From positions 186,001 through 250,000 of the forward strand of contig JADYYY010000010.1 in assembly GCA_020853395.1 (NCBI GenBank): DNA of 64,000 nucleotides. The letters run 5' to 3'. Below the pieces are notes generated by a model. That model was not told the DNA's origin. It worked only from the letters and a program-made list of their open reading frames with translations, and did no database searches. Made by a program: the position numbers and the translations under genes. This document shows, one piece after another, positions 1-16,077 of the stretch (the first letter of the stretch is position 1; each line of letters begins with the position of its first letter). Origin of the DNA: Acidobacteriota bacterium (GTDB taxonomy: Bacteria > Acidobacteriota > Vicinamibacteria > Vicinamibacterales > SCN-69-37).

Positions 1-1126
1 TCCCCGGCGCGGGCGCGCACACACCGAGCACGGCCGACTGCCGCTCGCTCAGTACCGGCTGAACGTGCACGGCGCCCGTTGCCGAAAGATCCGTAATCGT
101 GAACGTCGCTTCCGACAGGGCTCCCGGCGCCAGCGACTCGTCGAGGTAATCCATGATCAACTGCTGTTTCTCATCGAGGATCTGACGAACCGACTTCCGA
201 TCCGCCTCCTTGATGACGACGACCTTGAGGCCAAGGCCAAGGTCGACGGCGTAGCCGATATTGACGGCGCCGTACTGGTAGCAGGTGCCAGCGCTGTAGT
301 AGGCATTGAGCCCCGGGTACCTCGACAGCAGCCGGGCACTTTCGAAGATCAGCGTGGCCGCGAACACTCCCGGAGCGCCGTCTTCCTCTGCGCTGAAGAG
401 ACGACCGTCGGTCGGCACCGGCACGGTCACCGAACTGGGAATCGTGTGCGAGTACGCGGCACGGATCTGATCGCCTTCGACGCGCTTGGCCCGGGGCAGG
501 GGGACGGGAGTCACGCCGGCATGACCTCCGGCGCCGTTCGAGAGCGCCCCACCCGGTGAAGGCTCGATCACCTGCGCGGCCGGCCGCCGATCATCGTGCG
601 CGGCAGCGTGCAGAAGCACGTCGCGCTCCCGAACGAGGAGCCGCCCTTCGAAGGCCCGAACGTCCACCGACAGCCGCTGCGCCACATCGGCTGCCCGCTC
701 GCTGAACCGCGGTGCTCGACCGGGCGTTGCGCCGATCCGCAACGCCGGCTCGTCCCGGCCGCGCTCGCACGCCCTGCCGTCGTCGGCCGCCATCGACGCC
801 GGTTCCGATGCTGTCGACGTACGAGCGGGCGGCTCGCTGCACACACGGTCGGGTCGCGACAGCGCCGCGGCTTGCGTCGACTCCGCATCAGGCCCGATGT
901 GGCACAGCACCGCATCCACCGGGACGTCGTCGCCCTGCGCGGCGACACGCCAAACGACGCCGGACGCGGGCGCCGGCACATCGAAGGACGTCTTGGTCGT
1001 CTCGAGCACGACGAGCGGCGCACCGGCTTCGATGAAGTCGCCATCGTTGACGAGCCACTCGACGACGGCAACCGACGAGTCGTTCACTGATTCCACGGGA
1101 GGCCGCACCGGGACGATGTCAGACAT
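1..1126 (-). CDS. E2-like 2-oxoacid dehydrogenase acyltransferase with lipoyl domain (3' end outside window)
   Basis: Reading is open from an ATG at 1126, preceded by GGAGGT, to the window edge (375 codons), so the C-terminus is missing. Residues 1-77 form a biotinyl/lipoyl domain with the lipoyl-lysine motif ETTKT (K45). Next come an Ala/Arg-rich linker, a degenerate subunit-binding-like stretch ending GRLLVRERDV, and an E2 catalytic-type fold with FTITDLSATG. It is a paralogue of the gene at 2530-3864, with the same domain order. The HxxxD active-site motif would lie beyond the edge, so catalytic competence cannot be judged. It lies 45 bp downstream of the Wzt gene. In known complexes E2 carries acyl groups on lipoate; a role in acylating glycan is inference. 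Confidence 0.85.
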   Translation of the reverse strand, partial: MSDIVPVRPPVESVNDSSVAVVEWLVNDGDFIEAGAPLVVLETTKTSFDVPAPASGVVWRVAAQGDDVPVDAVLCHIGPDAESTQAAALSRPDRVCSEPPARTSTASEPASMAADDGRACERGRDEPALRIGATPGRAPRFSERAADVAQRLSVDVRAFEGRLLVRERDVLLHAAAHDDRRPAAQVIEPSPGGALSNGAGGHAGVTPVPLPRAKRVEGDQIRAAYSHTIPSSVTVPVPTDGRLFSAEEDGAPGVFAATLIFESARLLSRYPGLNAYYSAGTCYQYGAVNIGYAVDLGLGLKVVVIKEADRKSVRQILDEKQQLIMDYLDESLAPGALSEATFTITDLSATGAVHVQPVLSERQSAVLGVCAPAPG

Positions 1127-1171
1127 GACCACCTCCGGCTGTCGTTCTTCTGTGAGGCCGGGTGGGACGTC

Positions 1172-2503
<1,332 letters not shown>

Positions 2504-2529: not shown

Positions 2530-3864
2530 TCAGGCGCACCAGTCCCGAAGGCAGATCGTGCACACGAGCTGCTCTCCGCGGCCGACGCCGACGAGCGTGC
2601 GCACCAGCATGTGGCGGGCGCCCTCGAGCTCGCTCATCGGCCGCAGGCACAAGGCGCACTCGGGCTCGACGGTGCCGGCGGTATCGACCGCCGGGCGGGC
2701 CTGCTCGTGCGCGACCAGCCGATCCCGAAGCTCCTCGAGGAATGCGGCCGCAGCGCGGCCGGACACGATTCGGGCGTCGAACGCGAGCACCAGATGGAAG
2801 AACCCGCTTCCGGGCCATGCCGGCGTCATGGCCGACACCGCGAGCGCCGCGCTCTGTGCGCGGCCGACGACGGGCTGCGCGTCGACGACGCCGGCCGTCG
2901 ACAGGTCGGCGATCGTGAACGTCGGCGCGGCCGCATCCGACGGCCCTTCGCCGCGCAGATACGCCCGCACGGCCTTCACGTACTCGTCGCCGATCGTCTC
3001 GAGATCTTTGCGGTCGGCGCCGCGGATCACCGACACCGGCGGCGAGGCCGCGAAATCCATGAGGTAGCCGATGTCGATGGACGCGTGCCGGTGCACACCG
3101 GCTTGCCAGGACGCGTTGAGATCGGGATACCGCACGAGCAGCCGCGCGCACTCGAACACCAGCACGGCACCGAGCGACGTGCTGGCCGATCGGTCGTCCG
3201 CGATCAAAAGCCGGCCGTCGCTCGGCACCGCGACGGTCACGCTGCCGGTCGTCGCGGTTGCCGGCGCCTCGTGGACTCCGAGTCCGCTGCCCAGCTCCGT
3301 CCGAGGCGCAGCGGATGTCCGCGACTCGTCCAACACCGTCGACGATCCGGCCACGCGTTCGCGGACATCACGCTCACGGACGAGCAGTCGGCCCGCAAAG
3401 GCCGCTGGGGCCACCGCCAGGGCCTCTGCGAGTGCTCGTGCGGCCGCGCTCAGGCGTGGGGCCCGCGGCGATCCGTCCGGCTCGCCCGCCCCGATCGACA
3501 CGGCGGCCGACACGGCCCGTTCGCGAACGCCATCGGAAGCGGCGCGCTCAGAGCTCGGCACCACGGGCGGCACGACGCCCACGGGCGCGGGCTCGGCCGC
3601 AGCACGCACCGCGGCGTCGAGGCTGGGCCCGATGTGACACAGCACGGCGCCCACCGGCAACTCCGCGCCGGCTGGCGCCACACGACAGACGACCCCTGCG
3701 ACCGGGGCGGGCACGTCCACCACCGTCTTCGTCGTCTCCAGCAGCACGAGGGGTCGCTCGGCCTCCACGCGCTCGCCGTCATCGACCAGCCACTCGAGCA
3801 CCGTCACGCTCGCGTCGTTCACGGTCTCGAACGGCAACCGCACGGCCACCGTGTCATGCACCAC
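2530..3864 (-). CDS. E2-like lipoyl protein with inactivated acyltransferase site and C-terminal zinc-ribbon-like tail
   Basis: The protein has 444 residues. A lipoyl domain (1-77) has the motif ETTKT with K46, followed by a linker and a degenerate subunit-binding segment (GRLLVRERDV). Then comes a shortened E2 catalytic fold (about 205-385, FTIADLSTAG). The active-site motif that normally reads DHRxxDG is FDARIVSG at 362-369, so the catalytic His is Ala364 and the Asp is Ser368. The tail carries C403-x2-C406 and C435-x2-C438 plus C443, a likely metal-binding ribbon not usual in E2. The gene overlaps the E1 gene by 11 bp. I infer a lipoyl carrier or scaffold rather than a working acyltransferase. 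Confidence 0.88.
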   Translation of the reverse strand: MVHDTVAVRLPFETVNDASVTVLEWLVDDGERVEAERPLVLLETTKTVVDVPAPVAGVVCRVAPAGAELPVGAVLCHIGPSLDAAVRAAAEPAPVGVVPPVVPSSERAASDGVRERAVSAAVSIGAGEPDGSPRAPRLSAAARALAEALAVAPAAFAGRLLVRERDVRERVAGSSTVLDESRTSAAPRTELGSGLGVHEAPATATTGSVTVAVPSDGRLLIADDRSASTSLGAVLVFECARLLVRYPDLNASWQAGVHRHASIDIGYLMDFAASPPVSVIRGADRKDLETIGDEYVKAVRAYLRGEGPSDAAAPTFTIADLSTAGVVDAQPVVGRAQSAALAVSAMTPAWPGSGFFHLVLAFDARIVSGRAAAAFLEELRDRLVAHEQARPAVDTAGTVEPECALCLRPMSELEGARHMLVRTLVGVGRGEQLVCTICLRDWCA

Positions 3865-5851
3865 GGACGATCTCCACGATGGCGGAATGGATCGAGGCCG
3901 GTCCGGCCAACAGTGCGGCCTCGAGCGGGCCGCAACTCGGCAAAGGATGCGGCGGCGCGCTGAGGCGCTTCAGGTGCCGGATCGCCCCGGGCCGCGCCTC
4001 GACGATCTGCGCGACGACCTCGGCGCCGAACGCCGAGAACCCCATGCCCTCTTCGACGATCAGCAGCCGCCCGCTCGCCCGCACCGACTCGACGACGGGC
4101 CGGCAGTCGAACGGATACAACTGCACGGGACAGATCACCTCCGCCACGATCTCTTCCTGATCGAACACGGTTTCGATGGCCTGTTCGACCTCGACGAGCA
4201 TGCCGCCATAACAGAGGACCGTCACGTCCGGCGGCAGGTCGCTCCGGATCCGTGTCACCGGAAACCGCTCGGCGGTGTGCTCGACGACGAAACCGTCGGG
4301 ATCATGCTCTGCCAGCCGCTGCGCATACAGCAGCTTGTTCTCGATGACGAGCGCGAATCGATCGAGCGTGTCGAACAGCTCGTCGTAGACGCGCCCGGGG
4401 TCGTACCGATGGTGAATCGCCAGCACCTGCGTCTGCGGCAGCCCGAGGAAGTGCTTCTCGAGGGACTGGCTGTGCGTCGGTCCGTATCCGCGCTTGCCGC
4501 CCATTGGCGTCCGCACGATGAGCGGCACCTGCACCTGGCCGTTGTACATGTACGGGAACTTCGACGCGTGGTTGATGATCTGGTCGGCCGCGAGCGTCAG
4601 GAAGTCGCCGAACATGATCTCGCAGACCGGACGCAGGCCGTTCATGGCCAACCCGATCCCCAGGCCGACGATCGCCGCCTCGCTGATCGGCGTGTTCAGC
4701 ACGCGCGCGGGATGGCGATCGCTGAGACCGCGCGTCACCTTGAACGCCCCGCCGTACGGCGATCGAATGTCTTCGCCGAGCAGCACGATGCGCGCGTCGC
4801 GTGCCATGTTGCGATCGAAGCTCGCGCGGAGCGTTTCGACGACGCGCGCACGCTCGCGGGGGCGACTCGCGGACACCCAGACGGGATCCGCGATCCGCTC
4901 CGGCACGTCGCCGCCGCCGGCCGTCGAGAACGGGGCCTGACGCGCGGTCGCCACCGCCCGATCGAGCCGGTCGCGGATGTCCGCATCGAGCGCCTGCGCC
5001 TGCGCATGCTGCGAGAGAAAGAGGGCCACCGGATCCTTGGCCCAGTACGCCTCGACCTCCGCGCGATCGCGGTCGTCGTCCCCCTTCGAGTGCGCCATGA
5101 GACGGTAGGTGTCGATCTTGACGAACGCCGGCCCGCGTCCGCTGCGCACGTGGTCCAGCGAGGCACCGACGACGTCGGCCAGCTCCTCGGGCTGCCACGT
5201 CGAGCCCGCTCGCGCGTGCAGGCCGAACGCCATCGCACGTTCGAGCACGCCGCCGGCGAGCGTCTCGGCCTGCGGCGTGCTCTGCGCGTACAGGTTGTTC
5301 TCGAGGACGATGCACAGCGGCAGGCGCCACTTCGACGCGATGTTCATCGTCTCGTAGACGACGCCTTCGCCGAGCGTGCCGTCGCCGATGAACACCACCA
5401 CGACGTGCGCAAGGCCGCGCTGCTGGTGCGCCAGCGCAAGGCCGGCCGCAATGGGGACGATGCCCCCTTGCACCCCGTTGCTGAAGAACCCATCGCGGCA
5501 GATGTGCTGGCTGCCGCCGCGCCCGCCGCACACGCCCGTCACGCGTCCCATGATCTCGGCGAGCAGCCCCTCGACGTCGCCCGTCCGCGCGAGGTAGTGC
5601 CCATGGCACCGGTGATTGCTGAACACCTGGTCGCCGGGGGCGAGATGCCGGGCGACGGCCAGGCCCGAGAGCTCCTGGCCGATGCAGGTGTGCACGGTGC
5701 CGAACAACTGCCCTTCGGAGAACAGTTGAAGCAAACGCTCTTCGAACCGGCGAATGAGCAGGGCCTCCGCGTACATCACCCCGCCCGCCGCCGCGGACAG
5801 CTCCTGCGAGGCCTCCACGTGGCGCGGGGTCAACTCTGGAATGCGCGACAT
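3854..5851 (-). CDS. Fused alpha-beta thiamine-diphosphate dehydrogenase E1 component
   Basis: The protein has 665 residues. The start at 5851 (MSRIPEL) is chosen because GAGGAG lies just upstream. Residues about 20-330 are an E1-alpha domain with the ThDP motif GDGTLGEG (156-163) and the paired NN at 185-186. Residues about 355-660 are E1-beta (LLGEDIRSPYGG onward). Such enzymes decarboxylate a 2-oxoacid and reductively acylate lipoyl-E2. It is followed by an E2-like gene with an 11-bp overlap, then wzt and a second E2-like gene. No E3 lipoamide dehydrogenase is in the window. The substrate is unknown. A housekeeping pyruvate dehydrogenase is less likely, given the placement inside a polysaccharide operon. 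Confidence 0.9.
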   Translation of the reverse strand: MSRIPELTPRHVEASQELSAAAGGVMYAEALLIRRFEERLLQLFSEGQLFGTVHTCIGQELSGLAVARHLAPGDQVFSNHRCHGHYLARTGDVEGLLAEIMGRVTGVCGGRGGSQHICRDGFFSNGVQGGIVPIAAGLALAHQQRGLAHVVVVFIGDGTLGEGVVYETMNIASKWRLPLCIVLENNLYAQSTPQAETLAGGVLERAMAFGLHARAGSTWQPEELADVVGASLDHVRSGRGPAFVKIDTYRLMAHSKGDDDRDRAEVEAYWAKDPVALFLSQHAQAQALDADIRDRLDRAVATARQAPFSTAGGGDVPERIADPVWVSASRPRERARVVETLRASFDRNMARDARIVLLGEDIRSPYGGAFKVTRGLSDRHPARVLNTPISEAAIVGLGIGLAMNGLRPVCEIMFGDFLTLAADQIINHASKFPYMYNGQVQVPLIVRTPMGGKRGYGPTHSQSLEKHFLGLPQTQVLAIHHRYDPGRVYDELFDTLDRFALVIENKLLYAQRLAEHDPDGFVVEHTAERFPVTRIRSDLPPDVTVLCYGGMLVEVEQAIETVFDQEEIVAEVICPVQLYPFDCRPVVESVRASGRLLIVEEGMGFSAFGAEVVAQIVEARPGAIRHLKRLSAPPHPLPSCGPLEAALLAGPASIHSAIVEIVRGA

Positions 5852-5882
5852 CGGCTCCTCTCTCGCTCTCGACGCGTAGGCG

Positions 5883-7559
5883 TCAGTTGACACGGACCGA
5901 GGTGGTCGATTGCGGTACGAACACCCGCCGCACGACCTCCGCATGGGCGTACGCCCGCCTGACGAAGACGTGGAGCGTGTCGGTCGTTCCGGTCGGCACG
6001 CTGCCGACATGCTCGTAGTCCTCGCCGAAGCCCGGCGTCCGTGCGACGATCAGGGTCACGCCGCCGCCGCTGCGCGAACGGCCGGGATCAGCCAGAATCC
6101 TCGGCCCGTACGAGTCGACGTCGAGCACCCATTGCTCGCCAGCGATCTCGAACGGCTCGCCCGCGAGCCGTCGATCGGGAGAGGGCCGCTGGAGATTCAT
6201 ATCCGGCAGCACCAGCAGATCCGGCTGTCGGCGGGCCACGTACTCGGCCGTCACTCCCTCACGCGCGATCACTCGGTCGTTCAACCCGATGAGATCGAGG
6301 ACCGGCAGCCGAGAGAAATACGCGAGCGCTCCCACGTCCGCCGTCGCCACGAGCGGCGGCGGCTGGAGCCGCGAGAGCGGTTCGAGCCGGCGTCCCAGCG
6401 CGACGAGATCGTGCTGCGCCGCGAAGTACGGCACCCAGCCGGGATAGATCGTTTCGCGCAGGCGGGCATTGCTGAGCGCCGTCGTCGCGAGCACGGCGGC
6501 GACGAACGCTCCGCTCGCGATGGTTCCGCCGAGGCGCGACGACCGCGCCGGCTGCATCAGCACGGCGATGCGGGCGGCTCCCACGAGGAGGATCGGCAGG
6601 GTCACGATCAGAAAACGGTAGCCCTGCCCCATGATGGGATCGATTCGCGTGAAGACGAGGCAGAACACGGCGGCCGGCACCAGCAAGAGCATCGCAATGG
6701 CATCACGCGCCACCCGCCACGGTCCGATGATCAGCGTTCCGAGCGCAATGAAGAGGATTAACGGCCACACGAGCCCGAGGTACGTCCTGACATACTGAGC
6801 CCCCGGGAACCCATCGGCCACGACCTTGACGTGCATCGTGTTCGGCACGACGTCGCCGAAATAGGCCCATCGCGCCGCGGTGATCGCGGCGAGCAGCGCG
6901 CCGGCGACCAGCGCGCCGGCGACCAGCGCGCGTCGAGGCGGTCGGGTCCAGACGGCCATGACCAGCCAGAGCGGCCCGAGCAGCGCCACGGCATCCGGCC
7001 GCACGGCAATCGTCACGACCGACCCCACCGCCAGCACCAACGCCCGTCGGGTCGTCAGCGGCCGGAGGACCACCGCGACCACGGCGAGCAGGACCGCGAC
7101 GAAGACCATCGTCTCCAGTCCGTGAAAGACATGGAAGGCGAAGAGACCGTTGACGGCCAGCGCGCCCGCGATCACCAGGCTGCCGAACAGCACCTGCGGG
7201 CGATCCTCGCCGGCCTCGCTGGCTGCCGACCGAACCAGCACGGGCATCACCCACACCAGGAGCAGCACCCACGCGACCTGCGAACTCGCAGGCAACGTCA
7301 CGTCCGGCGCGAGCCCGGCGAGCCGACGCATCGCGGCACCCAGCGCCACCGAGGCCGCACTCGTGAACCCCTCCACTGGCGCCTCGCCTGCATTCCACCG
7401 AAGGCCGGCGCCGCTGCCCCAATGCTCGGCGTACCGATACGTGATGTACGTGTCGTCGAACACGAACGTGCCGAAGAGCCGCGCCCAGCCGACGTAGGCG
7501 CCGACGCTGACGAGCGCGAGCAGGGCCGTGAGCCCGATGCGCTTTGGCGCCATGGTCAT
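5883..7559 (-). CDS. Polytopic membrane glycosyltransferase (GT-C type, AftB/GT39-like)
   Basis: The protein has 558 residues. The ATG at 7559 overlaps the stop of the Wzm-like gene (ATGA). The N-terminus has one membrane segment followed by the motif FDDTYITYRYAEHW and GEAPVEGFTS. That pattern is typical of GT-C enzymes that use polyprenyl-phosphate sugars on the periplasmic face, where the paired Asp is catalytic. About ten hydrophobic segments follow, then a soluble C-terminal domain of about 170 residues. It probably adds a side sugar or other decoration to the exported glycan; donor and acceptor cannot be read from sequence. A 15-bp tandem repeat near 6894-6924 encodes a small Ala/Val/Gly repeat in a membrane segment. 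Confidence 0.8.
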   Translation of the reverse strand: MTMAPKRIGLTALLALVSVGAYVGWARLFGTFVFDDTYITYRYAEHWGSGAGLRWNAGEAPVEGFTSAASVALGAAMRRLAGLAPDVTLPASSQVAWVLLLVWVMPVLVRSAASEAGEDRPQVLFGSLVIAGALAVNGLFAFHVFHGLETMVFVAVLLAVVAVVLRPLTTRRALVLAVGSVVTIAVRPDAVALLGPLWLVMAVWTRPPRRALVAGALVAGALLAAITAARWAYFGDVVPNTMHVKVVADGFPGAQYVRTYLGLVWPLILFIALGTLIIGPWRVARDAIAMLLLVPAAVFCLVFTRIDPIMGQGYRFLIVTLPILLVGAARIAVLMQPARSSRLGGTIASGAFVAAVLATTALSNARLRETIYPGWVPYFAAQHDLVALGRRLEPLSRLQPPPLVATADVGALAYFSRLPVLDLIGLNDRVIAREGVTAEYVARRQPDLLVLPDMNLQRPSPDRRLAGEPFEIAGEQWVLDVDSYGPRILADPGRSRSGGGVTLIVARTPGFGEDYEHVGSVPTGTTDTLHVFVRRAYAHAEVVRRVFVPQSTTSVRVN

Positions 7560-8404
7560 ACGCGATCGGCGAACGAGCTCTCCATGCGCTTGAAGTAGTA
7601 GGCCCCACCGACGAGAACCACCGCGGCGACGGCCGCTGAGACGGCGACCATCGGACCTGGCGTCCCGCTCTGACCGAGCAGCGCCCACCTGAAGCCCTCG
7701 ACGACGCCGCTCATCGGGTTGACGCCGTACCACGTGCGCCACGGGTCGGGAATCTCACGGCTGGAGTACGCGATCGGCGTCGCCAGCATCCAGAACTGCA
7801 CGATGAACGGCACGACGTACTTCACGTCGCGGTACTCCACGTTCAGCGCCGACAGCCACAGGCCGACGCCGAGCGCCGTCGCCAGCGCCAGCAGCAGGAA
7901 CGCCGGGAGCCAGATGACGTTGACCGTCGGATAGACGCCGTAATAGGCCATGAGCAGGAGCAGCACCGCAAAGGCGATCACGAAATCGACCACACCGGAC
8001 AGCACCGTGGCGATCGGGATGGCCAGACGCGGGAAGTACACCTTTCGCAGAAGGTTGGCGCTGCCAGCCAGGCTGTCGGCCGACTGCGTCAGCCCGTTCG
8101 CGAAGAACGTCCAGGGCACGAGCGCGGCGTAGGCGAACAACGGATAGGGCAAGCCGTTCGACGGGATCTTCGCGAGCCAGCCGAAGAACAGCGTGAAGAC
8201 GACCATCGTGAAGAGCGGCTGGATGATCGCCCACCCGGCGCCGAGCGCCGTCTGCTTGTAGCGGACTTTCACGTCGCGCCAGATGAGGAAATACAGCAGC
8301 TCGTGGTAGTCCCACAGATCGCGAAGGTGGAGGCGGACCCAGCCGCGCGGCGGCGCGAGCCGGACGTGAGCAATCGGACGAGCGTGCATCTGATCGACGG
8401 ACAT
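7556..8404 (-). CDS. wzm: ABC-2 type polysaccharide export permease, Wzm-like
   Basis: The protein has 282 residues, the usual size for Wzm/KpsM permeases. An amphipathic N-terminal stretch (RDLWDYHELLYFLIWRDVKV) precedes about six membrane segments. The signature AYAALVPWTFFANG and the closing NPMSGVVEGFRWALLG match this family. It should pair with the ATPase at 1172-2503 to move a lipid-linked glycan across the inner membrane. The stop overlaps the next gene's start, and the gene begins 6 bp after the 4,6-dehydratase gene. The four genes between permease and ATPase (membrane glycosyltransferase, E1, E2-like) break up the normally adjacent wzm-wzt pair. Confidence 0.93.
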   Translation of the reverse strand: MSVDQMHARPIAHVRLAPPRGWVRLHLRDLWDYHELLYFLIWRDVKVRYKQTALGAGWAIIQPLFTMVVFTLFFGWLAKIPSNGLPYPLFAYAALVPWTFFANGLTQSADSLAGSANLLRKVYFPRLAIPIATVLSGVVDFVIAFAVLLLLMAYYGVYPTVNVIWLPAFLLLALATALGVGLWLSALNVEYRDVKYVVPFIVQFWMLATPIAYSSREIPDPWRTWYGVNPMSGVVEGFRWALLGQSGTPGPMVAVSAAVAAVVLVGGAYYFKRMESSFADRV

Positions 8405-8410
8405 CGAGGT

Positions 8411-10420
8411 CTACCTTGCCGTGTCGGGCAGGTCATCGGCGTCCTGCCACGCACCCGAACGGCCGCCGACGGCCGCCGCCACCATCCGGCGCCGCGACGC
8501 GATGTGCGCCTCGGCCTCGGCGTTGCGCCGCAACAGCGCCGGATCCGGCGTGAACGACGGCACGACCCGGCTCAGCGCGGCGACGACCGCGCTCGCCTCG
8601 CCGAGCTTGGCGAGGCGAATCAACTGATCGAGCTCAACGCTCAAGTGGTCGGCGCCCCTCGGACGGCTCGCCACGCGCAGCACCTTCTCCACCGGCGACG
8701 GCGTCAGCTCCTCTTCGTCGGCGTGCAGGCGCTCCGACAGCTTCTCACCGGGCCGCAGGCCGACGAACTCGATCTTGATGTCGTCGGGCCCGAACCCGGA
8801 CAACCGGATGAGGTTGTCGGCCAGCGTCACGAGCTTGATCTGCTCGCCCATGTCGAGCACGTAGATGTGATCGCCTTCGCCGAGCGCGGCGGCGTGCAGC
8901 ACGAGCTGGACGGCCTCCGAGATCAGCATGAAGTAGCGCTCGATCTCCGGGTGCGTGACGGTCACGGGGCCGCCCGCGTGAATCTGCTTGAGGAACCTGG
9001 GCACGACGCTGCCGTTGCTGCCGAGCACGTTGCCGAAGCGCACGGTCGTGAACCGCGTGCCGCCGAACGGCGCCAGCGCCTGCACGGTCAGCTCCGCGAC
9101 GCGCTTCGTCGCGCCCATCACGCTCGTCGGCTCGACGGCCTTGTCGGTGGAGATCAGCACGAACCGTTCGATGCCGTGCCGCTGGGCGGCGGCGGCCACC
9201 ATGCGCGTCCCCATGACGTTGTTCTTCACGGCCTCGCAGCAGTTGAACTCCATCAGCGGCACGTGCTTGTGCGCGGCCGCGTGCAGGATGATCCGGGGCT
9301 GCCAGCGTGACAGCACGGCGTCGAGCCGGGCCTCGTCCGTCACGTCGCCGATGACCAGCTCGGTGCGCACATCGGGGAACGTGTCCTCGAGGTCGTGCGC
9401 GATCGTGTACAGGCTGTTCTCGTAACGCTCGAAGAGAATCAAGCGGCTGGGCCGGAACGCGGCGATCTGACGGCACAGCTCGGAGCCGATCGATCCGCCG
9501 GCGCCCGTCACCATAATCGACCGTCCTTCGATCAGCTCGCGGACCGGCCGATCGTCGAGCCCCACCGGCGGCCGCGCCAGCAGGTCTTCGATCGACAACT
9601 GCCGGATCTGGCTCACCGCGATCTTCCCGTCGATGAGATGGCGCAGCGGCGGGACCGTCGTGATCGGGACGCGGAACGGGCGAAGGACCCGCACAAGTTC
9701 CTGCGCCAGCGCCGTCTCGCGCTGCGCGACCGCCATGAGCACTTCGTCGGGCCGCGTCCGGGCGATCGCGCGCGGCAGATCCGCCAACGTCCCGAGCACC
9801 GGCACCCCGTGGATCCGAAGCCCGCGCTTGGTGCGGTCGTTGTCGAGGAAGCCGACGGGACGGTAGTCGCGGTAGTTCGACATGTCCCGCACGATCATCT
9901 CGCCCATGTCGCCCGCGCCCACGATCAGCACGCGCTTCCCGTTGCCGCTGCGGACGATGTCCCGGTAGATCCGCGGCACCAGGCGCAGCCCTCCGAGCAC
10001 GAACACGAGTAGCAGCGCGTCGATGATGAACACGGATCGCGGGTAGTCCACGTACCCGAAGTACCGGTGCACGAGCGCGTACGCCGCCACCGATCCGCCG
10101 GCGACGCCGGCCATCAGGTTCCGCAGATCCCACATGCTGGAGTAGCGCCAGAGCCCTTCGTACAGCCGGAACGGCACGAAGAGGACGGCGCGGATCGCGA
10201 GCACCCAGGGCAGCATCGACCACCAGAGCCACAGCTCCCTGGCGGGGATGACGCCATCGAACCTGAGCCAGAACGCCGCGTAGCTCGTCGCGACCGGTGC
10301 CGCCAGGTGCACGGCGACGACGAGCGGCCGGCGATACCGGAGCAGACCGGCCCGCGTCCATCGAGCGAGCGTCAAGACGACGGCACGCAGTGCGTCGGAG
10401 GAGGATTGAAAGCGAGTCAT
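8411..10420 (-). CDS. Membrane-bound nucleotide-sugar 4,6-dehydratase (CapD/WbpM/PglF family)
   Basis: The protein has 669 residues, full length for the large WbpM/PglF type. Four N-terminal membrane segments (about 25-160) precede a first Rossmann-like domain (VLIVGAGDMGE). The catalytic SDR domain has VTGAGGSIGSE and ISTDKAVEPT. The position normally held by Tyr in YxxxK reads MGATK, the Met substitution known in WbpM-type dehydratases. It would convert UDP-GlcNAc to UDP-4-keto-6-deoxy-GlcNAc. With the DegT aminotransferase and the PglC-like transferase downstream this suggests a bacillosamine- or QuiNAc4N-like first sugar. That pathway assignment is inference. Confidence 0.93.
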   Translation of the reverse strand: MTRFQSSSDALRAVVLTLARWTRAGLLRYRRPLVVAVHLAAPVATSYAAFWLRFDGVIPARELWLWWSMLPWVLAIRAVLFVPFRLYEGLWRYSSMWDLRNLMAGVAGGSVAAYALVHRYFGYVDYPRSVFIIDALLLVFVLGGLRLVPRIYRDIVRSGNGKRVLIVGAGDMGEMIVRDMSNYRDYRPVGFLDNDRTKRGLRIHGVPVLGTLADLPRAIARTRPDEVLMAVAQRETALAQELVRVLRPFRVPITTVPPLRHLIDGKIAVSQIRQLSIEDLLARPPVGLDDRPVRELIEGRSIMVTGAGGSIGSELCRQIAAFRPSRLILFERYENSLYTIAHDLEDTFPDVRTELVIGDVTDEARLDAVLSRWQPRIILHAAAHKHVPLMEFNCCEAVKNNVMGTRMVAAAAQRHGIERFVLISTDKAVEPTSVMGATKRVAELTVQALAPFGGTRFTTVRFGNVLGSNGSVVPRFLKQIHAGGPVTVTHPEIERYFMLISEAVQLVLHAAALGEGDHIYVLDMGEQIKLVTLADNLIRLSGFGPDDIKIEFVGLRPGEKLSERLHADEEELTPSPVEKVLRVASRPRGADHLSVELDQLIRLAKLGEASAVVAALSRVVPSFTPDPALLRRNAEAEAHIASRRRMVAAAVGGRSGAWQDADDLPDTAR

Positions 10421-10459: not shown

Positions 10460-11593
10460 CTACAGATTCAGAGGGCCGTCCCCGTCGCCCCGCGTCAAGT
10501 GGCAGTCCTGCACCTGGGTGCCCGGCATCCCGAGCTCACGACGGAGCGCCGGCGAGACGGCGAACAGGTAGTTGGACGTGTGCTCGGAGAAGCCCGCGCG
10601 TCCAAGCGCCGTCGTCCAGATGCCGGACGCCTGGTTGCTGACGATCAGATCCACACCGCGCCCCGCCAGCATCTTCGTCGCCGCCGCGATCATCGGATCC
10701 GCATCGTCCGGGTCGCCGAAGCAGTCCACGATCGTGCCGACGCGGAGGTTGCCGAAGTACGAATGGCCGCGCATCCCGGTGTCGAGGGCGATGACCCAGC
10801 CGGTCAGGCGCGGACCGCGGCGGTACGCCCAACGCAGAAACCGTGATCCCGCGGGATACAACTGCGCGATCGTGTCCGCATCCCGGCGGGCCGCGAACCG
10901 ATAGACGCCGCGGTGACGCTCCCAGAGGGCCGTGCACTGCGGATCGCCGTCGCCGAGCTCGTGAAGCGGCCCGAGCTCACCGCCTGCGCGCTCGCCGCCC
11001 GCTCGTTCGGCGACGGCACGAACGGCAGCGCGCGCTCGACGGGCCGCGACGACTGACGCCGCGGCGGCAAGGCCCGAGAACGCCGCCACGTCGAGCGCGA
11101 GCCGCCGCCACGGCGTCCGGCGGACGGCGTCGAGCCCGCGCGCCACGCGAAACGGGCGGACGAGCTTGAAGAGAAACGGCACCGGCGCGATCTCCCACCC
11201 CAGCGCCAGCACCAGCTTCGCGATCGTCTGGTCGCGGCCGCCGATCCCCAATCCGAAGAGCAGCGGCTGGCGCCGTGAGGCATGCGCGAGCAGTTGTGCC
11301 CCGACCATGCTGTACTGCCGGCTGATCAGCCCTTCGGACAACGGCAACTGCAGGAATCCCGCCGTGCGCTCGCGTCCGTTGATCCAGAACGTTTGCTCCT
11401 GCACCAGGTAGCCGCCGCGCACGTGCGCCTCGCGGTCCACAGCGACGAAGGCGTGCTTGCGGACCGGCGCGGGCTCCTCCGGCGGCAGCGCATCAGGGAA
11501 GCGGTAGGTGATCCCGCTCTCGGACAGGCGCCGGTTGAACGCGTTCAAGGCACCCGCGTGATCGGAACTGTAGGGGGCGATCGCGATTCCCAT
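10460..11593 (-). CDS. Probable GNAT-like acyltransferase, function unknown
   Basis: The protein has 377 residues. The N-terminal part (MGIAIAPYSSDHAGALNAFN) looks like a GNAT start, with HVRGGYLVQEQTFWINGRE reading as a GNAT beta-hairpin. The C-terminal part (GRGVDLIVSNQASGIWTTALGRAGF) resembles a second GNAT-type half. An Ala/Arg/Gly-rich linker lies near 165-210. It starts 1 bp after the VOC gene stop and precedes the 4,6-dehydratase by 39 bp. One reading is N-acetylation of the 4-amino sugar made by the dehydratase and DegT enzymes. Another is transfer of the acyl group carried on the neighbouring acyl carrier protein. Neither can be proven from sequence. Confidence 0.55.
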   Translation of the reverse strand: MGIAIAPYSSDHAGALNAFNRRLSESGITYRFPDALPPEEPAPVRKHAFVAVDREAHVRGGYLVQEQTFWINGRERTAGFLQLPLSEGLISRQYSMVGAQLLAHASRRQPLLFGLGIGGRDQTIAKLVLALGWEIAPVPFLFKLVRPFRVARGLDAVRRTPWRRLALDVAAFSGLAAAASVVAARRARAAVRAVAERAGGERAGGELGPLHELGDGDPQCTALWERHRGVYRFAARRDADTIAQLYPAGSRFLRWAYRRGPRLTGWVIALDTGMRGHSYFGNLRVGTIVDCFGDPDDADPMIAAATKMLAGRGVDLIVSNQASGIWTTALGRAGFSEHTSNYLFAVSPALRRELGMPGTQVQDCHLTRGDGDGPLNL

Positions 11594-11594
11594 C

Positions 11595-11999
11595 TCAGAC
11601 GTGAGACGCGCCTTCGACGAGCTCGATCAACCCGGCCGCTCGGCTGAAGAGCCACGCGATGCGTCGTCCATCGAACGCCGGCGCGGGGACGGGCCGGGCG
11701 AGCTGTACCAGACCGGCACGACGCGCTTGTGAGAGCGCACGGTCCAGATCCGGCACGCGGAAGCAGAGGTGCACGAGCACTTGCCCCTTCGTGAGGCTGT
11801 TGTCGATGGGCGACGCGCTGCCGAGCGGCTCGATCAGCTCGATGCGCACGCCGCCCCAATCGACGAACGCGACGCTGACGCGCTGCACCGGGTCCTCGAT
11901 GACCGCCGTGTTCTCGTCTGCGAGATCCCGAATCGAGCGCACGGCCATCCCGACGTGATCGAAGACCGCGGCGCTGTCCAGCCAGGCGGGATGCGTCAC
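11595..11999 (-). CDS. VOC-superfamily (glyoxalase/methylmalonyl-CoA epimerase-like) protein
   Basis: The protein has 134 residues, a single two-repeat VOC fold. All four likely metal ligands are present: H15 (FDHVGMAV), E54 (RIELIEP), H77 (LVHLCF) and E126 (LIELVEG). The H-E-H-E spacing resembles methylmalonyl-CoA epimerase. It overlaps the FkbH-like gene by 4 bp and sits in the ACP-FkbH-VOC-GNAT gene block. It may therefore epimerise or isomerise a small thioester-bound acyl unit. That role is inferred from position; VOC proteins also do unrelated chemistry. Confidence 0.8.
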   Translation of the reverse strand: MTHPAWLDSAAVFDHVGMAVRSIRDLADENTAVIEDPVQRVSVAFVDWGGVRIELIEPLGSASPIDNSLTKGQVLVHLCFRVPDLDRALSQARRAGLVQLARPVPAPAFDGRRIAWLFSRAAGLIELVEGASHV

Positions 12000-13675
12000 G
12001 AGGCCACCTCGATTGCCTCATGGATCTCCACGTGGTCCGGCTTGGGGTACGGCGTCGCCAGATCCCACACGAACCGGTGCTCCGCCACGTGCGACAGACC
12101 CGAGCGTTCGAGAAACCTGAGACACGGGCGGTTCTTGGCGGTCGGCACGAACGTCGCGCCGAGCGTCGTCGCGCCCCGCTGTCGCGCGGCGTCGGCGACG
12201 ATGTGCAGCATCACGTCCTCGATGTGGCGGCCGAACACCCGGCAGCTCAGGACGAAATCGACGATCTCGGCGCGGGGACCATCGATCTCGACGCTGGCCA
12301 GCCCGGTCAGCCCCGCATCACCGAACCGGTCCATGGCGCGGAACGTCCAGAACGCGCGCGCCGGATCTGCCGCCCACGTTTCGAGCGCGGCCGCGTCGAG
12401 CCGCCGCGTGCTGAGGTTCATCTGGTTGGTCTTGTTGAGCAACTGCGCGGCGCGCGGCAGCGTCCTCGGGCTGAGCCGCTCGACATGGACCGACAGGTCC
12501 AGCCTGGCGAGCCAGTCCTCGACCGAACCGGCGGCATCGCGCTCCCGCTCGCGGTCCCGCTCCGCAACGTACGCGCGCGTCCGTTCGCGATCCTCGTCGG
12601 TCACCGCGACCGAGTTGAAGCAGGTCAACCCGAGCAACGCGTCGACGTAGAGGAGCGGGCTGGCCGGCCACTCGGGCACGAGCACGTCCGGCAGGGCCTC
12701 CCGCACGCGTCCACGCTCGGCCGGGTTGTCGTCGATGAAGACCATCGCGTCGAGCCCGACGTTGAGCTGTCGGGCGAGCACGGCCACGTTCGCGGCCTTG
12801 TCGTCCCAGTTGATGCGCCAGCCGGCAAGGTCGCGCTGCCGGAGGATCATCTCCGGATGCCGATCGATGGCCTCGAGCGCGGTGGCCTCCTCGTTCTTGC
12901 TCACGACCGCCAGCATCACACCCCGCGCGGCGAACGCCAACAGCGCGCGCTGGAAGTCGCAGTAGGCCTCGCCGACGGCATCGTGCCCGCCGAGCCGCAA
13001 TCCCGCCCATCCCACGTCGCCGACGATGCCGCCCCACAGCGTGTCGTCGAGATCCAGGACGATGACCTTTCGCACCTGTCCAACCGACGCCTGGAGCGCG
13101 CCCTTCACGTCCAGAACCGCGCGACGGAAGACGTCCGTACCGAACGGAATCTTCGCCGCGTACCAGAGCTTGGCTTCGTCGGGCCGGCGCTCCGCCGGCA
13201 TCCAGCGGCTCGAGTCGAGCAACACGACGCCAGGCAGGGCCGCGACGAGCTCGGACAGCCGCAGGTTCATGTGCAGGAGCGCGTGCGCGGCGCCTCCTCG
13301 CGGCGACAGCGCCAGCGCGCCGAAGGCGCGGCCGAGCGGCGGCAGCGACCAGCTCATGACGATGAGGCGGCCACTTCGATCGCGAAGCCGTTTCAGTTCT
13401 CCGCCGAACGCGTCGACATCATGGAGGATGTCCGTCAGGCGGCCGTCGCCACGGGTCAGCAGCGCATCGTACGCCGGGCTCACGCGTTCGGGCCGGGTCC
13501 ACACGACCGCCACGTCTGCGTGCGCCTCGTCCTGCGCCTCCGTCCACGCCGCCGCGCTGGGGCCGGCGCTGCGCGCATCGATCACCGGCGACCCAGCGTC
13601 GCGCGTCAGCAGCGATGCGAGATTCGCGGCATTGAAGTCGGCCAGCACGACGAGCGGCGTCCGTTCACGCGACAT
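11996..13675 (-). CDS. FkbH-like HAD-IIIC domain protein with C-terminal GNAT domain
   Basis: The protein has 559 residues. After an N-terminal region (1-200) a HAD domain shows motif I VLDLDDTLWGG (D208, D210), SKNEE as motif II and FIDDNPAER as motif IV. The C-terminal 150 residues are GNAT-like (MNLSTRR, LSCRVFGRHIED, FVPTAKNRP), as in full-length FkbH proteins. Characterised FkbH/OzmB/Tmn16-type enzymes take 1,3-bisphosphoglycerate, remove phosphate and load D-glycerate onto an acyl carrier protein. The partner carrier protein is encoded immediately upstream with an 11-bp overlap. A glyceryl-ACP product feeding glycan decoration is a strong but untested inference. Confidence 0.88.
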   Translation of the reverse strand: MSRERTPLVVLADFNAANLASLLTRDAGSPVIDARSAGPSAAAWTEAQDEAHADVAVVWTRPERVSPAYDALLTRGDGRLTDILHDVDAFGGELKRLRDRSGRLIVMSWSLPPLGRAFGALALSPRGGAAHALLHMNLRLSELVAALPGVVLLDSSRWMPAERRPDEAKLWYAAKIPFGTDVFRRAVLDVKGALQASVGQVRKVIVLDLDDTLWGGIVGDVGWAGLRLGGHDAVGEAYCDFQRALLAFAARGVMLAVVSKNEEATALEAIDRHPEMILRQRDLAGWRINWDDKAANVAVLARQLNVGLDAMVFIDDNPAERGRVREALPDVLVPEWPASPLLYVDALLGLTCFNSVAVTDEDRERTRAYVAERDRERERDAAGSVEDWLARLDLSVHVERLSPRTLPRAAQLLNKTNQMNLSTRRLDAAALETWAADPARAFWTFRAMDRFGDAGLTGLASVEIDGPRAEIVDFVLSCRVFGRHIEDVMLHIVADAARQRGATTLGATFVPTAKNRPCLRFLERSGLSHVAEHRFVWDLATPYPKPDHVEIHEAIEVAS

Positions 13676-13979
13676 CCCGGTCCCCGGCGCCGAGGCGCAA
13701 CAGATGCTCGACGAGCGACGCGACCGTCCGAAAGGCGCCGGCGCCCGGGTCGAAGCGTTCGTCGGCGAGCAGGCTCACCGGCGAGCGCAGCACCGCTTCG
13801 ACGCGCGGCTCGAGCGCCACGATCAAGTTCACGACCCCCAGCGAGTCGAGCCGGCCAGCCTCCCCGACGAGCTCCGTTTCGAGCGTCTTCGGCAACTGAT
13901 CGGTGGCGGGTCTGAGCGCGTTGACCTCGTCGATCGCGTCGAAGACCGCCGTCGTCAGCGCCTCACGAATCTCTGACAT
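13665..13979 (-). CDS. Acyl carrier protein (phosphopantetheine-binding)
   Basis: The protein has 104 residues from the ATG at 13979, chosen because GTGAGG lies nine bases upstream. A GTG at 13994, overlapping the deacetylase stop as GTGA, is the alternative and adds five residues. The carrier motif is RLDSLGVVNLIVALE with S46 as the phosphopantetheine attachment site. Flanking helices match the carrier fold. It overlaps the FkbH-like gene by 11 bp, so the two are almost certainly co-translated. It likely carries glycerate or a derived acyl group rather than fatty acids, but the loading enzyme has not been tested. Confidence 0.85.
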   Translation of the reverse strand: MSEIREALTTAVFDAIDEVNALRPATDQLPKTLETELVGEAGRLDSLGVVNLIVALEPRVEAVLRSPVSLLADERFDPGAGAFRTVASLVEHLLRLGAGDRDVA

Positions 13980-13990
13980 CCCGTTCATCC

Positions 13991-14878
13991 TCACCGTCTC
14001 GCCCGGCGCAGGTGGTCGGTCACGCGAAAGGGCGCGAGCGAGCCCGACACCTTCGCCCGAACGACCGCGGGCGTGTCCGTTGTGTAGACCTCGACGCGCG
14101 GCAGTTCCAACGGCCGGCTGGCCGCCGTGGCGAGCCCGAGGTCGGTCGTCATGGACGTGACGAAGCCCGCGTCCGCGACGGCGGCCACATACGCAGGGGT
14201 GACATGCCCGAGGCGCGAGCTCCCGTACGGATACGCGTACGACGCGATGCGCTCACGCCCGAGGCGGGCGGTCAGCACGTCCCGGCACTGCCCCGCCTCG
14301 TCAGCCATTTCCGTCGCCGTCAGCTCCAGACCGCTGCGGTGCCGGTGCGAGTGCCCGCCGACCTCGACCAGACCAGACCGCAAGCAGCGTTCGATCGACG
14401 GCCAGTCGATGGCGCGCCAGGCCGAGGCCGGCGCATCGGCCGCGTGCCGCCCTCCCCACCGGTCGAACGGCATCGGCGCCGGCTGGCCGATGTAGGCGGT
14501 CACGACGAAGAGCGTGGCCTTCGCACCGTAGCGCTCCAGGATCGGCAGCGCTTCGTCATGGAAGTTCTGGAAACCATCGTCGAACGTCAGGCACGCGAGC
14601 GGGCGACGGCGCGCCTCATGCCCGGCCAAGAGCGCGGGCAGCTCGTGAGCCCACACGAGGTCCGCGTGCTCGACGAGCGCGGCGATCTGTTTGTCCAACA
14701 TTTCGGGATGCACGTTCCAGTCGTCGAGGCGCGGCTCGCTCACGCGCGCACGCGAGACGCGGTGATAGACCAGGATGCACACGGACGGATCGGGACGCGG
14801 CCCCGTCGTGCCGCGCAGCAGCACGCTCGCGATTCCCGCGGTTCGCTTGACCGCACGCTTGGCGACCAGCACGGACAT
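13991..14878 (-). CDS. Polysaccharide deacetylase family protein (NodB domain)
   Basis: The protein has 295 residues. The start at 14878 (MSVLVAKRAV) avoids a long shadow extension upstream. NodB motif 1 is TFDDGF (98-103) with the catalytic-base Asp pair. Motif 2 is HSHRH (176-180), supplying metal ligands. The N-terminus is basic and hydrophobic but not a clear cleavable signal. Family members remove N- or O-acetyl groups from GlcNAc-containing polymers. It follows the DegT gene by 11 bp and precedes the acyl carrier protein gene, so it may act on a lipid-linked intermediate or the secreted polymer. Confidence 0.88.
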   Translation of the reverse strand: MSVLVAKRAVKRTAGIASVLLRGTTGPRPDPSVCILVYHRVSRARVSEPRLDDWNVHPEMLDKQIAALVEHADLVWAHELPALLAGHEARRRPLACLTFDDGFQNFHDEALPILERYGAKATLFVVTAYIGQPAPMPFDRWGGRHAADAPASAWRAIDWPSIERCLRSGLVEVGGHSHRHRSGLELTATEMADEAGQCRDVLTARLGRERIASYAYPYGSSRLGHVTPAYVAAVADAGFVTSMTTDLGLATAASRPLELPRVEVYTTDTPAVVRAKVSGSLAPFRVTDHLRRARR

Positions 14879-14889
14879 GTCAGCTCGAT

Positions 14890-16077
14890 CTAGATCGTGC
14901 CTGCGGCGGCCGGGACGACGGTTCGCACGCCACCGGCCGCGCGCCGAACGGCGTCGATGACGTCCTGGACGTCTCCGTCGGTCATCGCGGGATAGATCGG
15001 CAGCGACATGATGCGCTCGTAGATGGCCATGGCCGTGGGGAACGCCTCCGCGACGTAGCCGAACCGGTCGCGGTAGTACGGGTGCAGGTGCAGGGGGATG
15101 AAGTGCACCGACGTCCCGATGTTCGCGTGCCGGAGCGCGTCGATGACGCCATTGCGCCCGCCCGGCACCGCCGCCGGATCGATCTCGATCACGTACAGGT
15201 GCCAGGCGTGCTCGCGATCGGCACGCAGGCGCGGAACGGCCACGCCGGGCAGGTCGGCAAACGCCGCATCGTACTGCTGCGCGATCGCCCGCCGGCGCGC
15301 GAGGAACTCCTGCTGCCGCCCGAGCTGCGCGAGGCCGAGCGCCGCGGCCACGTCCGTCATGTTGTACTTGAAGCCCGCCTCGAGGACTTCGTAGTACCAC
15401 GACCCTTCCGCGGTGTAGCGCTTCCAGGCGTCCTTGCTGATGCCGTGGAGCGACATCATCCGCATGCGGGCCGCCAGCGCCGCATCCTGGGTCGTCACCA
15501 TGCCGCCTTCGCCCGTGGTGAGCGTCTTCGTCGCGTAGAACGAGAAGCACGTGACGTCGCCGAGCCGCCCGACCGGCGTGCCCCGGTACGACGCCGGCAT
15601 CGCGTGCGCCGCGTCCTCGATCACGCGCAGGCCGTGCCGGCGCGCCAGCTCCAGGATCTCGGTCATGTCGCACGCCTGCCCGGCGTAGTGCACCGGCAGG
15701 ATCGCGCGGGTGCGCGGCGTGATGGCGCGGGCCACCGCGTCAGGGTCGAGGTTGTAGGTGTCGCGCTGCACGTCCACGAGCACGGGCTTGGCGCCAAGGT
15801 AGATCGCCACCTCGGCCGTCGCCGTGAAGGTCAGCGTCGGCACGATGACCTCGTCGCCGGCCCGTACGCCGGCCGCTTCGAGACCGAGGTGCATCGCGGC
15901 CGTGCACGAGTTGACCGCGACCGCGTGCTCGGCGCCCACGGCCGTGGCGAATTGCGCCTCGAACTCGCGCACACGCGGGCCCGTCGTCAACCACCCGGAC
16001 TTCATGGTCTCGACGACCGCCGCGATCTCGCCGTCGTCGATCGAAGGCAGGTGGTACGGAAGAAACGTTGATCGCAT
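14890..16077 (-). CDS. DegT/DnrJ/EryC1/StrS family PLP-dependent sugar aminotransferase
   Basis: The protein has 395 residues, standard for the family. The PLP lysine is K184 in FYATKTLTTGEGG, and the EDAAHAM motif (154-160) supplies the residue that stacks on the cofactor ring. The N-terminus IDDGEIAAVVETMKSGWLTTG is typical of this group. These enzymes transaminate 3- or 4-keto nucleotide sugars. The 4,6-dehydratase at 8411-10420 would supply UDP-4-keto-6-deoxy-GlcNAc, making a PglE-like 4-aminotransferase reaction the simplest reading. It starts 16 bp after the PglC-like gene. Confidence 0.92.
   Translation of the reverse strand: MRSTFLPYHLPSIDDGEIAAVVETMKSGWLTTGPRVREFEAQFATAVGAEHAVAVNSCTAAMHLGLEAAGVRAGDEVIVPTLTFTATAEVAIYLGAKPVLVDVQRDTYNLDPDAVARAITPRTRAILPVHYAGQACDMTEILELARRHGLRVIEDAAHAMPASYRGTPVGRLGDVTCFSFYATKTLTTGEGGMVTTQDAALAARMRMMSLHGISKDAWKRYTAEGSWYYEVLEAGFKYNMTDVAAALGLAQLGRQQEFLARRRAIAQQYDAAFADLPGVAVPRLRADREHAWHLYVIEIDPAAVPGGRNGVIDALRHANIGTSVHFIPLHLHPYYRDRFGYVAEAFPTAMAIYERIMSLPIYPAMTDGDVQDVIDAVRRAAGGVRTVVPAAAGTI

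Follow-up and report, generated by a model that had tools for sequence, protein, structure and literature searches.

The window analysed here, a stretch of 64,000 nucleotides, carries near its left edge a gene whose product resembles the E2 acyltransferase of a 2-oxoacid dehydrogenase and has lost its active-site residues, and we ask what such a protein would do. The initial annotation proposed that an enzyme had been converted to a carrier or scaffold, with a cysteine-containing tail providing a new, metal-dependent interaction. The features considered are listed in Table 1.

Table 1. Features of the window and of the sequence adjoining it; coordinates are those of the window unless prefixed
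Feature	Coordinates	Strand	Remarks
Intact E2 paralogue (part within window, residues 1-377)	1..1132	-	His/Asp motif and tail outside; C10:185717-187132
Wzt copy 1, ABC exporter ATPase	1172..2503	-	Second copy, 84% identical, lies outside the window
Dead E2 copy, 444 aa	2530..3864	-	Lipoyl domain, degenerate peripheral-subunit-binding-like segment, catalytic-fold domain, four-Cys tail
Four-Cys tail, C403-x2-C406...C435-x2-C438	2551..2658	-	Cys in 8/8 aligned members, plus ninth member
Catalytic-fold domain, residues 205-390, active site lost	2695..3252	-	PF00198; diverged faster than in the twin
FDARIVSG, residues 362-369 (His to Ala364, Asp to Ser368)	2758..2781	-	From alignment
Ala319 at Ser558-equivalent position	2908..2910	-	Ser/Thr in the other seven aligned members
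Peripheral-subunit-binding-like segment, residues 134-170	3355..3465	-	Short, degenerate; putative assignment
Lipoyl domain, residues 1-80; Lys46 at 3727-3729	3625..3864	-	PF00364; Lys in 8/8 aligned members
Fused E1 alpha-beta (ThDP)	3854..6010	-	PF00676, PF02779, PF02780; overlaps dead E2 start
Wzm, ABC-2 type exporter permease (probable)	7556..8404	-	Read from sequence; no NCBIfam match at E 1e-25
PseB/CapD-like UDP-sugar 4,6-dehydratase	8411..10420	-	Polysaccharide locus
FkbH-domain protein	11996-13675	-	TIGR01686, 1.4e-85
Small carrier protein (probable)	13665-13994	-	Weak DltC match, 2.4e-4
PseC-like sugar aminotransferase	14890..16077	-	TIGR03588, 1.5e-125, just below cut-off
ACP domain fused to AcpS-type phosphopantetheinyl transferase (ACP-PPTase)	L006:17037-17720 = C10:185037-185720		Left of the window

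The active site of the dead E2

Both domains expected of a 2-oxoacid dehydrogenase E2 are recognised in the protein: a lipoyl domain with Lys46 in the sequence LLETTKT (Pfam Biotin_lipoyl, 4.5e-10; 39.7 bits, cut-off 22.1) and a catalytic-fold domain (2-oxoacid_dh, 6.1e-18; 65.5 bits, cut-off 23). Neither side chain expected of an active enzyme is present, with A364 in place of the catalytic His and A319 in place of the Ser or Thr equivalent to Ser558 (A. vinelandii E2p numbering). The replacement of DHRxxDG by FDARIVSG, with its His to Ala and Asp to Ser changes, had been recognised in the initial annotation and is confirmed in the translation and the alignment, as are the intact Lys46 and the pairs C403/C406 and C435/C438. 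The motif had also been called invariant, which within the family holds for the His (absent only in the dead copy) and not for the Asp, whose position is taken by Asn in the aligned A. vinelandii E2p chain and, in several His-bearing family members, by Ser or Glu. The third loss, A319, had not been reported. It was placed by alignment to the A. vinelandii E2p chain 1dpd, which itself carries Ala at 558 and which we take to be the S558A mutant; among the eight aligned family members, this oxyanion Ser/Thr has become Ala in the dead copy only. Judged from these residues, the loss of catalysis is real, and retention of the lipoyl arm is supported. Fold prediction from the dead and intact copies gave a mean pLDDT of 33 and was not used for fold searches.

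Other residues might conceivably have taken over and now catalyse a different acyl transfer. An open frame under selection (see below) and further changes in the active-site region, e.g. L275P and G342A, would suit such an enzyme, but the His, Asp and Ser/Thr positions are all lost and no recognisable catalytic group is left; we regard this reading as highly improbable.

An intact twin, and the order of the genes

A PF00198 search of the genome recovered an intact tandem paralogue just downstream of the dead E2, at the window's left edge, which was absent from the initial annotation. This twin has 471 residues, is 50% identical to the dead E2, and retains the His and Asp (motif FDHQVADG), a Thr at the Ser558-equivalent position, and the same four-Cys tail. 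The peripheral-subunit-binding-like segment is 57% identical between the two copies; Pfam E3_binding was matched by one member only (E 0.00019) of the eight family members scanned.

Read along the minus strand, the genes run E1, dead E2, Wzt, intact E2, ACP-PPTase, Wzt. The slot immediately after E1, which in relatives holds the sole E2, is here taken by the dead E2, and the intact E2 is paired with the ACP-PPTase. The two Wzt copies (window 1172-2503 and L006:15700-17028) are less alike in their C-terminal parts (78%) than in their ATPase parts (89%); the C-terminal part is probably glycan-recognising, and the copies may recognise different chain ends.

The C-terminal part of the ACP-PPTase matches PF01648. 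Searched one sequence at a time, the first ~75 residues match no Pfam family significantly (best 0.0023); with a profile of six members all of the best PDB matches are acyl carrier proteins (best 1.8e-4), and an invariant Ser stands at the place expected in an ACP. This Ser does not align cleanly in the divergent protein of genome G649, and comparing profiles directly, against three local carrier proteins, gave a weaker result (probability 41%, E 2.7e-4). The ACP-PPTases of G238, G785, G637 and G1059 end in a hydrophobic, membrane-anchor-like C-terminus that the window genome's copy does not have.

Distribution of the cassette

Using first the E2 and then the ACP-PPTase fusion as query, we identified the cassette in seven further genomes (G129, G238, G785, G637, G883, G649 and G1059), all in the window genome's phylum. 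Searches at order, class and phylum level, of several hundred genomes each, returned no further full-length ACP-PPTase fusions; within this phylum the cassette is rare. In six of these genomes fused E1, tailed E2 and ACP-PPTase follow one another, and the E1s are 44-61% identical to that of the window. The seventh is G129, where the tailed E2 lies directly between FkbH and ACP-PPTase (L063:7177-10999); no E1 is present on the contig, and the E1s elsewhere in that genome are only ordinary ones. This arrangement hints that in G129 glyceryl-ACP made by FkbH might stand in for the E1 route.

A scan of named genomes gave only short lipoyl-domain relatives, and plasmid records gave ordinary E2s only and no ACP-PPTase. 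A match in Cupriavidus sp. KK10 that seemed to span the tail has none and was rejected as a tailed relative; its locus on plasmid p1 (L085:7949-13224; E1 alpha, E1 beta, E2, small ACP, AMP-ligase) is a separate, tail-less E1-E2-ACP set. Three Acidimicrobiia contigs (L059:9926-12977, L060:9887-13304, L061:8997-12045) have, near a fused E1, a free-standing lipoyl-domain protein.

The four-Cys tail is older than the loss of catalysis

Both CxxC pairs occur in every family E2, eight of them aligned and a ninth read separately, and the His occurs in all except the dead copy. Among 56 E2-like proteins compared, the tail is found in 8/8 family members and 0/48 others; this comparison, the alignment and the tree cover the same eight members. 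That tail and lipoyl Lys are invariant in the eight, with the tail absent from the 48, argues against chance. The eight family members constitute one clade (support 100/100), in which the dead copy is sister to the intact one (99/97). Since the tail is present in 9/9 members and the His in 8/9, the tail is ancestral to the catalytic clade and not a novelty of the dead copy. The Ala/Ser change and the four Cys, which the initial annotation thought might be conserved together, are thus unlinked: the Cys are invariant across the homologues (8/8, and readable in the ninth), and the His-bearing twin and the E2s of seven other genomes share the tail. What survives of the proposed conversion is that catalysis was lost and the arm kept; the novelty of the tail does not.

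Two conserved C-x2-C pairs are the pattern of a zinc ribbon or treble clef, and on this basis the tail is probably a zinc tail, with metal binding plausible. Family searches with the tail alone gave weak, scattered zinc-finger matches, among them the ClpX C4 zinc finger at E 0.2-0.6, an identity that we do not claim. The same two CxxC pairs in every member might instead constitute a redox element, a dithiol/disulfide reoxidising the dihydrolipoyl groups in place of an E3, and no E3 was noticed beside the cassettes within the stretches read. The C-x2-C...C-x2-C spacing nevertheless agrees well with structural zinc binding, a housekeeping E3 could do the same work, and no confident family match, redox or zinc, was obtained for the tail, all of which makes a redox role very unlikely.

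Selection on the dead copy

The dead copy has a branch length of 1.16, against 0.31 for the twin, and is flagged as a long row in the tree. Its divergence is concentrated in the catalytic domain, which is 28-38% identical to the outgroups (twin, 32-48%), whereas the lipoyl domain and tail of the two copies are equally conserved relative to the outgroups. Sole departures from otherwise constant columns number eight in the dead copy and one in the twin. In every domain pN falls short of pS, the smallest values being those of the tail (0.18) and the lipoyl domain (0.23); with synonymous change near saturation, these ratios are rough.

A redundant copy heading towards a pseudogene, with no function of its own, would account for the long branch and the eight departures, and no second genome is known to carry the dead copy. 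Its frame, however, is fully open with a GC3 of 0.86, similar to that of E1, its lipoyl domain and tail equal those of the twin in conservation, and pN is well below pS throughout, and we consider simple decay unlikely. We read the pattern as catalytic chemistry freed from constraint, with arm and tail kept under selection.

The polysaccharide locus

Downstream, the locus continues with a hexapeptide acyltransferase and with NeuB-, NeuC- and PseF-like genes, and the gene content suggests that this is probably a Wzm/Wzt-exported nonulosonic-acid polysaccharide locus. Genes for hexapeptide acyltransferases are found close to the cassette in G129, G238, G883 and G649 as well, and acylation of the exported glycan would fit the genes present. 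Between the PseB-like and FkbH genes is a 377-aa protein (10460-11593) without a Pfam match, which by eye is perhaps a GNAT-type acyltransferase. FkbH and the small carrier protein (11996-13994) could form a separate glyceryl-ACP route; FkbH was rejected as a fixed partner of the cassette, being present in 2/8 loci only (the window and G129).

The cassettes of G785 and G637 have no polysaccharide-locus genes in view and no exporter nearby, and a general link to Wzt was rejected for that reason. These two cassettes also bear on the proposal with which we began, namely that the dead E2 became a stand-alone carrier or scaffold through a new metal-dependent interaction of its tail, perhaps with the Wzt exporter. 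Loss of catalysis with retention of the lipoyl arm and the Cys is as that proposal would have it, and the next gene is indeed Wzt, but in G785 and G637 no exporter for the tail to contact is in view, and its presence in all family members, including every one that keeps the His, largely refutes its novelty; the proposal is decidedly unlikely.

A proposed role in acyl loading

The composition of the cassette, a fused E1, a tailed E2 and an ACP fused to an AcpS-type PPTase, suggests acyl transfer from lipoyl arm to ACP, and the cassette probably loads small acyl groups onto the ACP. E1 would acylate the lipoyl arm, either by decarboxylating a 2-oxo acid or with a two-carbon unit drawn from a ketose phosphate; the intact E2 would hand this group on to an ACP primed by the PPTase fused to it, and a transferase would move it from the ACP to the exported glycan. 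The dead E2, incapable of transfer, would join the complex and contribute an extra lipoyl arm near E1 and contacts through its Cys tail, while the twin beside it performed the chemistry.

The dead E2 itself is most likely an auxiliary subunit, similar to E3BP (protein X), or an extra lipoyl carrier. This is suggested by the joint loss of three active-site positions with the lipoyl Lys and four Cys kept, by a twin that keeps His, Asp and Thr, by lower conservation confined to the dead copy's catalytic domain, and by the placement of the dead E2 directly after E1 and of the intact E2 with the ACP-PPTase. On balance we favour the fuller statement that it would be a diverged tandem duplicate within an acyl-loading set, serving as an E3BP-like subunit that gives an extra arm. 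A wider reading is possible, which we hold only tentatively: a new class of acyl-loading complex, composed of a ThDP E1, a zinc-tailed lipoyl E2 and a self-priming ACP-PPTase, whose E2 has in this one genome split into an E1-facing dead carrier and an ACP-facing transferase to make acyl-ACP for a surface polysaccharide, with E3BP as the parallel.

Comparison with known systems

Ordinary E2s of PDH, BCKDH and OGDH share with this family the lipoyl domain and catalytic fold, and the intact family members keep the His and the Ser/Thr. The tailed E2s differ in forming their own clade, in the tail, and in being encoded with an ACP-PPTase. In gene content the cassette resembles systems proposed to transfer acyl groups from lipoyl domains to ACPs, such as QncN/QncL/QncM and SclQ1-4; NapB/NapD is another system of this kind. 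For QncN/QncL/QncM this transfer is a published parallel, and for SclQ1-4, whose scl cluster also contains a PPTase gene (SclP), it is a proposal (PMC6335953). As in Qnc and Scl, where ThDP E1 parts, a lipoyl domain with an E2 acyltransferase domain, and an ACP are encoded together, the window cassette encodes an E1, a lipoyl-bearing E2 and an ACP together, with a PPTase as in scl. It differs in that E1 alpha and beta are fused, the E2 is separate and has the four-Cys tail, and ACP and PPTase are one protein; furthermore, Qnc and Scl serve peptide-type natural products, whereas the window set lies in a polysaccharide locus and has a dead second E2. A limited literature search found no published description of an E1, tailed E2 and ACP-PPTase cassette, weak evidence of novelty, and the cassette is apparently undescribed so far.

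If our reading is right, lipoyl-to-ACP acyl loading extends from peptide-type natural products to polysaccharide gene clusters, by way of an ACP fused to the enzyme that activates it, and a dead E2 has arisen independently in a bacterium beside its living twin. Possible reasons for retaining an inactive E2, such as E1 docking, core geometry or additional lipoyl arms, would then become testable.

The nearest precedent for the dead E2 itself is E3BP of the eukaryotic pyruvate dehydrogenase complex, an inactive E2 with working carrier domains (PMC7494870). At the sequence level the dead E2 corresponds to it as an inactive E2 homologue with an intact lipoyl domain beside an active E2; it is unlike E3BP in being bacterial, in deriving from its own tandem duplication, in having a four-Cys tail shared with its twin, and in belonging to an ACP-linked set. 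The system is best filed, from its gene and residue content, as a putative E1-E2-ACP acyl-loading set with a tailed E2 and a self-priming ACP, joined here by a dead second E2.
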